From positions 124,001 to 188,000 of the forward strand of contig CALEDJ010000045.1 of assembly GCA_937951485.1 (NCBI GenBank): a stretch of 64,000 nt of DNA, written 5' to 3'. How positions within the stretch are numbered: the first letter of the stretch is position 1; each line of letters starts with the position of its first letter. The stretch comes from an uncultured bacterium. GTDB taxonomy: Bacteria > Hydrogenedentota > Hydrogenedentia > Hydrogenedentales > CAILVY01. The position numbers and the translations under genes were made by a program. Below are positions 30,363 through 43,428 of the stretch, one piece after another. The notes beneath the pieces were generated by a model that saw only the letters and a list, made by a program, of their open reading frames with translations, did no database searches and was not told where the DNA came from.

Positions 30363-30905
30363 GCATCCATTCCGCCGCTGAAGTGCTTCAAGAATGATGC
30401 CGCAGCGACAGGGCCTGCGCCTGATGATTTCAAGGATTCTTCCTCCACGCAAATCTCCGCTTGGGAATGCCTGACACATCATTGCTCTCTTATTCGAGGT
30501 TTTTCCGTCTTGTTCCCCTCACCCCATCCCTCTCCCAGAGGGAGAGGGGGGAAGGGGGCTCAGTGGGGGAGGGGGTTAATGACAAAACCTGATGAGTGCT
30601 GTCTCCCCCTCTCCCTCTGGGAGAGGGATGGGGTGAGGGGTTGCCGGGCACCGCTTCATGCTTCTCTCAGTTCGATCCCCCTCTCCCTCTGGGAGAGGGA
30701 TGGGGTGAGGGGGTGCCGGGCACCGCTTCATGCTTCTCTCAGTTCGATCCCCCTCTCCCTCTGGGAGAGGGATGGGGTGAGGGGGGGATCGACGGAATGG
30801 AAGACTTGCCACAGTGCCAGGAATGTATTCGACAGCACTGATTGGAGATATTGCGTCTATCCGGTCCGCCGTAAGGCGTGTCTGCTTAAGATAGACAAAA
30901 CGCCG
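30363..30905. other. Gene-free gap dominated by short repeats
   Basis: The gap separates the small peptide gene from the convergent end of the porin-like gene. Its middle is a tandem 72-bp repeat array with a reversed copy before it (listed separately). The open frames that read through the array on both strands have near-identical repeated translations and no family resemblance, and are not taken as genes. Confidence 0.6.
30515..30790. repeat. 72-bp tandem repeats with internal dyad, plus one inverted copy
   Basis: CCCTCTCCCTCTGGGAGAGG followed by GATGGGGTGAGGGG starts units near 30605, 30677 and 30749, a spacing of exactly 72 bases. The first two units also share GCCGGGCACCGCTTCATGCTTCTCTCAG in their right part; the third breaks off soon after the core. 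The same core lies in reverse orientation near 30515-30551. CCCTCTCCC and GGGAGAGGG make each unit a strong hairpin. Closely similar cores occur in intergenic DNA of many bacteria. Confidence 0.85.
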
Positions 30906-38125: not shown

Positions 38126-38564
38126 TGTTGTATTCTCCTTGGTTGTTGTGCCGAAGCGTTGTCAAGGAAATTGCAAGGATTGTGCCAACGAAAGGGGAAA
38201 CGGGAATAAAATTATAAGTCTATTGAAAACAACAATTTAGGATGCAGGATGGACAGCAGGCCCTCGAAAATTCGTTGCAAGACAACGTTGCATTGCATAA
38301 TTCTTTGCATTGCAACGATTCCCTGTGATGTTGCAGAGACAACAATAATATCTCTTGCCTTTTTGCTTGATGCCTTCCCTGTGCTGACCCGGGTTTTTCC
38401 CCCGCCCGGCCTGTTAAAGCGTGAACATGATGTGCTACAACGTGCTTGCTCTTTGACAGTTGGTTTTCCACCCCGGCCCGGCATGTTAAAGCGTGAACAA
38501 CGTACACGCTGCCCCCCTGTCCCTGCTATCCCTGTTGTCTCTTCCTGTGCTTCAGCGCTTGCGC
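38126..38564. other. AT-rich gap with inverted and direct repeats
   Basis: No gene is supported. A minus-strand TATAAT (38216-38211) lies about 90 bases before the DUF2892 start, without a good -35. CGTTGCATTGCA and TGCATTGCAACG (about 38289-38320) form an imperfect inverted repeat. CCCGGC-TGTTAAAGCGTGAACA is found at 38405-38427 and again, with slight change, at 38477-38499, 72 bases apart. The region is the promoter side of the exporter operon. Confidence 0.45.
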
Positions 38565-39371
38565 CTATCGTTGGTCTATGCGGTAGCCCGGCTGGGAGTA
38601 ATCCCGGACGTTGGTGCCGGGCCGCGTGGGATAGGCCATATTCCCTTCGATTTTGAGACTGGGTTTGGAATAATCGCGGGCATTGGTGCCGGGGCGGGTG
38701 GGGTGGATCATGTTGCCGTCAATGCGCGCGCCGGGCTGGGAGTAATCCCGGACGTTGGTTCCGGGTCGGGTCGGATAGACCTTGTCGCCATCAATCCTGA
38801 GTCCGGGCTTGGAATAATCACGCACATTGGACCCGGGGCGCGTGGGATAGATCATGTTGCCGTCCATGCGGGCGCCGGGTTGTGACCAGTCACGCACGCC
38901 GGTTCCCGGCCGAGTGGGGAAGATGTTGTCCCCTTCGATGCGATACCCCGGTTTTGAGTAGTCGCGGACGCCGGTGCCGGGGCGGGTGGGATAGATCATG
39001 TTGCCGTCCATGCGGGCGCCGGGTTGCGATCTGTCGGGGAGGGTCGTGCCCGGCAGGGTGGGGTAGATGTGGTCGCGAACGATTTTATATCCGGGCCGGG
39101 AATAGTCCCGAATGGTTGACCCCGGCAGGGTCGGATAGACGTTGTCGCGTTCGATGCGGTATCCGGGTTTGGACATATCCCGCACGCTGCTTCCCGGCAG
39201 GGTGGGATAAACCCTGTCCCGATCAATGACATAGCCGGGTTTGGAATAATCCCTGATGGCGCTTCCGGGATGCGTCGGAAATACCATGCCCCGCTGGGCA
39301 ATCGCGCCGCCCGCCAGCCAGATCGCGACCGCCACCATGCATGCCGCCCGCACACCAGGCCGTCTTTTCAT
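38565..39371 (-). CDS. Secreted protein of ten 24-residue repeats, family unknown
   Basis: 268 residues from ATG 39371, preceded by GAGGAAAC; the frame is open upstream but only this start gives a signal peptide (MKRRPGVRAACMVAVAIW, cleavage near AIAQ). Residues 30-268 are ten tandem units of 24 residues (last one 23) with consensus YPTRPGTNVRDYSKPGYRI followed by D/E, G, N/D and one variable residue. Units with KPGY and QPGA tend to alternate, giving a 48-residue super-period. There are no cysteines in the repeats and no hydrophobic core pattern of TPR or LRR type; Pro, Gly, Arg and Asp dominate. I recognise no family. An envelope or extracellular role is inferred from the signal peptide only. 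Confidence 0.8.
   Translation of the reverse strand: MKRRPGVRAACMVAVAIWLAGGAIAQRGMVFPTHPGSAIRDYSKPGYVIDRDRVYPTLPGSSVRDMSKPGYRIERDNVYPTLPGSTIRDYSRPGYKIVRDHIYPTLPGTTLPDRSQPGARMDGNMIYPTRPGTGVRDYSKPGYRIEGDNIFPTRPGTGVRDWSQPGARMDGNMIYPTRPGSNVRDYSKPGLRIDGDKVYPTRPGTNVRDYSQPGARIDGNMIHPTRPGTNARDYSKPSLKIEGNMAYPTRPGTNVRDYSQPGYRIDQR
38568..39284 (-). repeat. 72-bp in-frame DNA repeats encoding the 24-residue units
   Basis: The ten protein units correspond to ten 72-base DNA units (last one 69). Neighbouring units share long identical stretches, for example the reverse complement of CCGGACGTTGGT and ATAGATCATGTTGCCGTC, so copies have expanded or been homogenised recently, mostly in the central and C-terminal units. 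The first three units are the most divergent. Confidence 0.75.
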
Positions 39372-39685
39372 TGCAGTTTCCTCCTGTTTCCGATTTTCTT
39401 GCGGTTGTTTTCTCCCGTTTGTTGAATGATACCGGCTGAGAACATTTCGCATTCCATGGGGCCCGTGAGGCGCGGCCATCGCCGAAAGGTCGCATCGCCG
39501 TGCATACCGCACGTTCTGCATGCCCGGATTCACCCACATAATCAGACGAAAGAGAACAGAAAAAATTCATTGTTCCGATGGTGCTCCGGCCCCAGCCGTT
39601 CCGTGCGCCATGAATAACGGGTTTGCATGGAGACCACGCGCGTGGCATCATGAGGCCGGACAGGGGGAACAAACGGTCGGCGAAA
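39372..39685. other. Divergent promoter region between repeat protein and ClC genes
   Basis: No gene is supported; both flanking frames extend into it but without signal or family sequence. AT-rich stretches near 39405-39430 and 39540-39575 may hold promoters for the two divergent genes. No confident hexamer pair was seen. Confidence 0.35.
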
Positions 39686-42672: not shown

Positions 42673-43428
42673 TTAGGGCAATGCGGCAGCGTAAAAGGGC
42701 AGCAGGTTGTGTCGCAAGGCTTCCACAGCGCGGCTGGCGCATTGGTGCTGTTCTTCGAGAAAACCCCGGCATTGCATGAAAAAGACTTGCTCTTCCGTGG
42801 ACACGTGCGGGGCGATTCCCCGCCTCGCATCATAGACACATCGGTGCGGCTGCCGCTCTTCCGAATGCCATATGACGTCAACCCGGCGCTGTTGTCGCGG
42901 CCAGGCACCCGACATGCGCAAGAAAATCATCAGCGAGAAGCCGTTGAAAAGCATCTCCGGCACGGCATTTTCAGCGCAGACCTGCTCGCGCGCTTCTTGC
43001 AGATCATCCGCATGCAGGCTGGTGGCCAGCATGTATCCTTTTTCCTGTAAGGCGCAATAGGCGCGCAGCGGTGCGCCCCAGAGATAGGCGAAATAAGGAC
43101 CGGCCCCAATCTCATGGCAGACAAAACACCGGCGACCGTCCGAGGGCGTCGCGCTTGCCTGACGCACGACCTCCGCTGTGGCAGCGACCAGTTCCATGTC
43201 CGGCGGAACAAGGTTGAGCAAAGCGCACATGACGGTGGTTTTCCCCGCGCCGCCGGGCCGCGCACCCACCATGAATGACGCGCCCCGCGCGATGCGGACC
43301 ATCAACCACGCCGCCAGGTCGAGGTCCAGTGTTCCCGCGTCGATCAGGTCCAGCATGGAGAGCATGCGCCCGCCGCGCTGGTTGCAACGGTCGAGTTCCC
43401 GGCAATGCCGTCGTACGGCGGCGTCCAT
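42673..43428 (-). CDS. Small secretion-ATPase-like P-loop protein attached to the dehydratase operon
   Basis: 251 residues starting three bases after the stop of the preceding dehydratase-family gene. A P-loop-like motif ARPGGAGKTTVMCALLNLVPP (first Gly replaced by Arg) is followed by ELVAATAEVV and GYMLATSLHADDLQEAREQV; the last resembles the His box (LVLSTLHTND-type) of GspE/PilT/VirB11 ATPases. The order P-loop, acidic region, His box, C-terminal domain fits a shortened secretion ATPase, but there is no N-terminal domain and no pilus or secretion gene nearby. It has seven or more Cys. Role unknown; coupling to the dehydratase proteins is inferred only from position. Confidence 0.6.
   Translation of the reverse strand: MDAAVRRHCRELDRCNQRGGRMLSMLDLIDAGTLDLDLAAWLMVRIARGASFMVGARPGGAGKTTVMCALLNLVPPDMELVAATAEVVRQASATPSDGRRCFVCHEIGAGPYFAYLWGAPLRAYCALQEKGYMLATSLHADDLQEAREQVCAENAVPEMLFNGFSLMIFLRMSGAWPRQQRRVDVIWHSEERQPHRCVYDARRGIAPHVSTEEQVFFMQCRGFLEEQHQCASRAVEALRHNLLPFYAAALP

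Follow-up and report, generated by a model that had tools for sequence, protein, structure and literature searches.

The window, i.e. the whole 64,000-nucleotide stretch of DNA analysed here, encodes on its reverse strand a repeat protein of 268 residues with an export signal (38565–39371, stop included), translated from a single unbroken ORF with exact boundaries. The ATG at 39371 is favoured over an in-frame upstream ATG at 39539, because a Shine–Dalgarno sequence, AGGAGG (39380–39385, reverse strand), sits 8 nt ahead of it. The gene is present in one copy, as found by a search of its own genome, and its G+C content is that of the adjacent genes. The signal peptide, MKRRPGVRAACMVAVAIWLAGGAIA (39297–39371, reverse strand), starts with MKRR, continues into VAVAIWLAGGAIA with AIA at its end, and is followed by a glutamine; its hydrophobic stretch (maximum Kyte–Doolittle(11) value of 2.49) and AxA site bear out the clean signal peptide and secretion proposed in the first-pass annotation. 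A lipobox cysteine was looked for at the signal peptide and is absent. Judged by these features, the protein may be Sec-exported and unanchored, with the periplasm or the cell exterior as its predicted location, a placement that we adopt tentatively as part of the overall explanation developed below.

The array consists of ten 24-residue units arranged head to tail, as had been described, the final unit being 22 residues long. In the unit alignment, all on the reverse strand, unit 1 (FPTHPGSAIRDYSKPGYVIDRDRV) occupies 39210–39281, unit 2 (YPTLPGSSVRDMSKPGYRIERDNV) 39138–39209, unit 3 (YPTLPGSTIRDYSRPGYKIVRDHI) 39066–39137, unit 4 (YPTLPGTTLPDRSQPGARMDGNMI) 38994–39065, unit 5 (YPTRPGTGVRDYSKPGYRIEGDNI) 38922–38993, unit 6 (FPTRPGTGVRDWSQPGARMDGNMI) 38850–38921, unit 7 (YPTRPGSNVRDYSKPGLRIDGDKV) 38778–38849, unit 8 (YPTRPGTNVRDYSQPGARIDGNMI) 38706–38777, unit 9 (HPTRPGTNARDYSKPSLKIEGNMA) 38634–38705 and the 22-residue unit 10 (YPTRPGTNVRDYSQPGYRIDQR) 38568–38633. 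Identity of the protein with itself reaches 0.62 at a lag of 24 residues and 0.69 at a lag of 48, compared with at most 0.16 at any lag in 2000 shuffles, and TRF reports periods of 72 and 144 in the DNA of the gene. The units had been called near-identical, but pairwise comparison of all of them gives 38–83% identity (mean 60%) at the protein level and 51–81% (mean 65%) at the DNA level. Synonymous sites are nearly saturated between units (mean pS 0.62), whereas mean pN is 0.26, and pN is lower than pS in every pair. The same is true on average of six relatives, and the seven proteins tested span pN values of 0.05–0.31 against pS values of 0.35–0.80. Near saturation at synonymous sites, together with the retention of protein sites, implies that the array is old and has been maintained by purifying selection, contrary to the recent expansion suggested at first.

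The proposed alternation of KPGY and QPGA with a structural period of 48 residues survives in part. Position 15 of units 1–10 reads KKRQKQKQKQ, so that the alternation is seen in units 4–10 and is missing from units 1–3. Unit identity at lag 2 is above that of random unit orders (P = 0.002), with a weaker result for the lag-2 minus lag-1 difference (P = 0.08). K/Q alternation is likewise found in the relative L010, where pS is 0.36 at lag 2 versus 0.74 at lag 1; because of this low lag-2 synonymous divergence, the alternation in L010 can be read as the mark of a two-unit duplication. The rhythm was also sought in L008 and L009 and is absent from both, and overall the evidence for a two-unit period is weak.

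No match above the curated cut-offs was obtained in Pfam, NCBIfam, PHROG or PADLOC, in which sub-threshold matches cover short pieces (e.g. GalE with 21.4 bits versus 262.3). Similarly, the PDB sequence search yielded no family match, a literature search with the letters of the core motif found no papers, and collections of plasmid and phage records gave weak low-complexity matches alone, e.g. to a Salmonella autotransporter. Designed trefoils in the PDB reached E-values of 0.005–0.007, but over 16 profile positions, and were judged to be chance matches. The initial view that the repeat belongs to no known family is thus upheld by these libraries, and the relatives described below keep the reading frame. 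Single-protein scans of GTDB and IMG/VR retrieved no relative, and an alignment-based search was needed; viral scans with single phage members as queries added no contigs to those already found.

Genome and virus searches together identified about 17 distinct relatives, which according to their record labels come from other Hydrogenedentota, Nitrosomonadaceae, Thermodesulfovibrionia, Bacteroidia, Proteobacteria UBA664 and Thermoguttaceae, as well as from three unrelated phage groups. The window organism belongs to the little-studied phylum Hydrogenedentota, an assignment made at the level of order. Within this order, the repeat family is found in 5 out of 68 genomes, that of the window included, and it is absent from the two genomes of the same taxonomic family. 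Outside the order, scanning a single genome for each species detected members in Thermodesulfovibrionia, Bacteroidia, Proteobacteria UBA664, Thermoguttaceae and three Nitrosomonadaceae. Whole-genome searches were positive for 5 of 125 Nitrosomonadaceae genomes and, in each of the other four seed groups, for the seed genome alone (1 of 249, 1 of 197, 1 of 274 and 1 of 398). Several of these genomes were binned from metagenomes and consist of short contigs, so an individual phylum label may stem from a binning error. The phage copies occur on five contigs among the 2.9 million in IMG/VR, where the repeat gene lies beside Erf-like and exonuclease genes (L023/L024), near a terminase (L052/L053), or near a replication-initiation protein and a terminase (L056/L057). 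The family is rare, its members being spread thinly across several bacterial phyla and a handful of phages, and represents an accessory gene with a patchy distribution. Two peculiarities of the phage contigs are worth recording. L023 4935–5921 and L024 1–516 are opposite ends of one 34-kb contig, which carries two copies of the repeat gene together with a small gene downstream of it (LKxLKRxKKxG..), as if the module had been duplicated. The large terminase subunit at L052 6138–8663 seems to bear an intein, its terminase match being interrupted by a stretch that runs from Cys to HN and ends before S.

The window protein and its relatives share a signal peptide, tandem units and the core PTxPGTxxRDxSxPG; a signal-peptide-like N-terminus is present in nearly all relatives, including every one with a complete start. 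From 68 units of 17 proteins, the core can be written as [YH]-P-T-L-P-G-T-S-[IL]-R-D-[YF]-S-[KRQ]-P-G, in short PTxPGTxxRD[YF]S[KRQ]PG, followed by a variable x-x-[IV]-[ED]-[GR]-[DN]-x. Conservation peaks in the loop (D 100%, G 99%, P 95%, P 94%, T 94% and R 88%), although the values at the D and P/G sites are somewhat inflated, because the pattern used to collect units fixed D and demanded P, A, Q or E and G or E at two sites. Strand positions vary, with hydrophobic I/V/L conserved at unit positions 1, 10 and 20. Units are either 24 or 29 residues long, and in the longer ones, which occur in L010, L013, L014–16 and L020, the five extra residues always follow [IV][ED] (e.g. VERDSLGNEYAYPT, IEREGNRGMVLYPT and VERHDDGSVTFHPT). 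The expectation that copy number may vary is met between relatives, with about two, degenerate, units in L057, three in L014–16, L023, L046 and L052, four in L012, L013 and L049, five in L011, six in L008–L010 and L020, and ten in the window protein. In L010 (7959–8993), the six 29-residue units precede a C-terminal extension in which a stretch (NLDVRRRSENKxEVHDRETG..) is duplicated.

AlphaFold2 modelling of the six-unit relative L009 with the family alignment gave a mean pLDDT of 92.5 and a pTM of 0.75, all five models exceeding 90. The model contains twelve strands, two per unit, such that each unit is predicted to form one beta-hairpin, with the turn at G[DN] and PGTxxRDxSxPG as a long connection. 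For the full window protein, modelled with a different alignment, the mean pLDDT was 65.9; hairpins were placed at the same positions in units 1–3 and 5–8, the last two to three units were not modelled, and the overall model is only moderate. For repeat sequences, AlphaFold2 is known to return regular beta structures that are confident yet unrealistic (PMC11795689), and because of this over-prediction the overall shape stays open and model confidence is not relied on alone. With their high Pro and Gly content, the units could instead form an extended or disordered chain, in which case the hairpins would be a repeat artefact and the motif a linear one for binding, repeated so as to raise avidity. 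This seems unlikely to us: the trouble reported in PMC11795689 concerned perfect repeats, whereas four methods gave consistent models for diverged natural repeats, and the units here have diverged to 60% identity while retaining I/V/L at positions 1, 10 and 20. Moreover, the five extra residues of the longer natural units are located at the turn predicted for the hairpin, which supports the hairpins independently of AlphaFold2 confidence. All five L009 models, in addition, agree at pLDDT values above 90. In several VIA rows, the first and last residues of the L009 model align to neighbouring strands within closed propellers, a hint of ring closure in the six-unit model; an obligatory six-unit ring is, however, argued against by the occurrence of 3, 4, 5 and 10 units.

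Searches of Foldseek and VIA structure libraries, covering solved and viral structures, returned nothing above the noise range, but several known systems resemble the predicted architecture. MORN repeats (e.g. those of radial spoke protein 10 and Toxoplasma MORN1) have about 23–24 residues and one hairpin per unit, as is predicted for the units here; the window protein has a weak phmmer match to RSP10 (E 0.29), and MORN proteins appear low in the Foldseek ranking. However, the family core PTxPGTxxRDxSxPG contains no MORN consensus, the family carries an export signal, and the Pfam MORN model matched neither the window protein at E ≤ 10 nor seven relatives at E ≤ 1. Consecutive hairpins in one sheet, as in our model, are also found in the single-layer beta-sheet of OspA and the G-box of CPAP/TCP10; in VIA, an OspA mutant scored Z ~4.5 (50 residues, 2.2 Å) and TCP10 Z 3.3, and such scores, overall Z 2–4.5, are within the noise range. 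OspA is a lipoprotein, whereas the window protein has no lipobox, and neither OspA nor TCP10 shares sequence similarity with the family. The best VIA score, Z 5.9 (116 residues, 4.3 Å), falls among the LURP-like barrel At5g01750 and the LolA half-barrels, which have a curved antiparallel sheet in common with the model but are not built of tandem 24-residue units, and it is below the level that would mean kinship. We rate the family as undescribed, but its kind, tandem beta-hairpin repeat proteins, as known.

Conserved neighbour genes were sought across the loci of the relatives and none was found, neighbours changing from locus to locus, and the nearest relatives of the window gene share no conserved neighbourhood with it. 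Because neighbours differ between loci, the protein would act by itself or rely on housekeeping partners. A ligand is not indicated by any partner, adjacent gene or fused domain. A glycerophosphodiesterase-like gene, recognised by eye near L008 and within ~1 kb of L010, is absent at other loci and was treated as chance. A bSEFIR defence gene lies directly after L009 and a type I restriction operon directly before L014. Together with the carriage by three unrelated phage groups, these two neighbours would fit an envelope-modifying cargo protein for lysogenic conversion or superinfection exclusion, masking or changing the surface so as to stop adsorption or injection by other phages, with the bacterial copies captured from mobile elements. 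A possible analogue in role alone is CwpV, a surface repeat protein of Clostridioides difficile, which is reported to confer phage resistance (PMC4737114); it is likewise an exported repeat protein and differs in organism, anchor and repeat type. We give this cargo role a low probability, given that only five virus contigs among 2.9 million encode the protein, PADLOC has no match to it, defence or prophage neighbours are lacking at the window copy and at most other bacterial copies, and the two defence-linked neighbours may be chance.

Overall, the protein probably serves the cell envelope as a repetitive binder or coat component, a putative assignment for which the following mechanism may be proposed. 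Each unit would combine a short beta-hairpin (YxI[ED]-G[DN]-xxYPT) with a conserved loop locked by Pro and Gly (PGTxxRD[YF]S[KRQ]PG), and side-by-side packing of neighbouring hairpins would bring the loops into a regular row. Such a row could provide a multivalent surface for a repetitive partner in the envelope or the surroundings, a polysaccharide or the like, and the number of units would set reach or avidity; the tolerance of 2 to 10 units may be understood in the same way, as tuning of either. The gene itself would be a stand-alone accessory element that is gained and lost, and it is at times phage-borne. As a whole, this explanation, an accessory, horizontally spread, exported hairpin-repeat protein whose aligned conserved loops would bind multivalently, is put forward tentatively: the conserved loop residues could merely hold the fold, and the AlphaFold2 bias for repeats (PMC11795689), the mean pLDDT of ~66 for the window model and the want of a convincing match among solved structures all weigh against it.

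The same tandem, Pro/Gly-rich array with a variable number of units, encoded with an export signal by a single gene without partners, might also be expected of a passive subunit of a fibre, sheath or matrix, in which the repeat gives length and assembly and binds no specific ligand. Yet many relatives have only 2–4 units in ~90–150 residues (L012, L014, L023, L046 and L052), which is short for a fibre, an anchor, a sorting signal and a nearby assembly gene are all absent, and charge varies widely, making such a passive role rather improbable. The ice- or mineral-binding surface protein entertained in the first-pass annotation finds no support and is very improbable: beyond that suggestion and the regularity of the repeats, no tool result favours it, the conserved residues are P, G, R, D, K and aromatics in place of a flat Thr array or an acidic run, and the mature pI across the family spans 4.9 to 9.95. 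We also doubt that the family constitutes a new fold class, that is, an extensible hairpin repeat (2–10 units of 24 or 29 residues) that would be exported, exchanged by phages between phyla and envelope-modifying in phages and bacteria alike.

The repeat family is absent from every library searched, and its core is so strict that it can be recognized in phages as well as in different phyla. Should the hairpin model hold, the family would offer a simple scaffold that can be extended and that comes with natural length variants, of use in structural studies and design, and the phage link, if functional, would point to an unrecognized envelope-acting cargo gene.

Several further features were observed in the window. 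A 251-residue ORF at 42673–43428 (reverse strand) contains a GxGKT-like stretch and resembles a fragment of a secretion ATPase, with no Pfam match. At 30604–30785, a 72-bp tandem repeat is present in 2.5 copies that are 99% identical; its period is also 72, yet its sequence is unrelated to the protein repeat. Just downstream of the repeat gene, a 29-nt direct repeat (38399–38427 and 38471–38499) is 93% identical between its copies, which lie 72 bp apart, and the 16-nt core of the repeat, TGTTAAAGCGTGAACA, has no further occurrence anywhere in the window (0.03 expected by chance). Also downstream of the gene, at 38272–38318, lies an inverted repeat, the 14-nt arms of which (TCGTTGCAAGACAA and TTGCATTGCAACGA) are 86% complementary and 19 nt apart.
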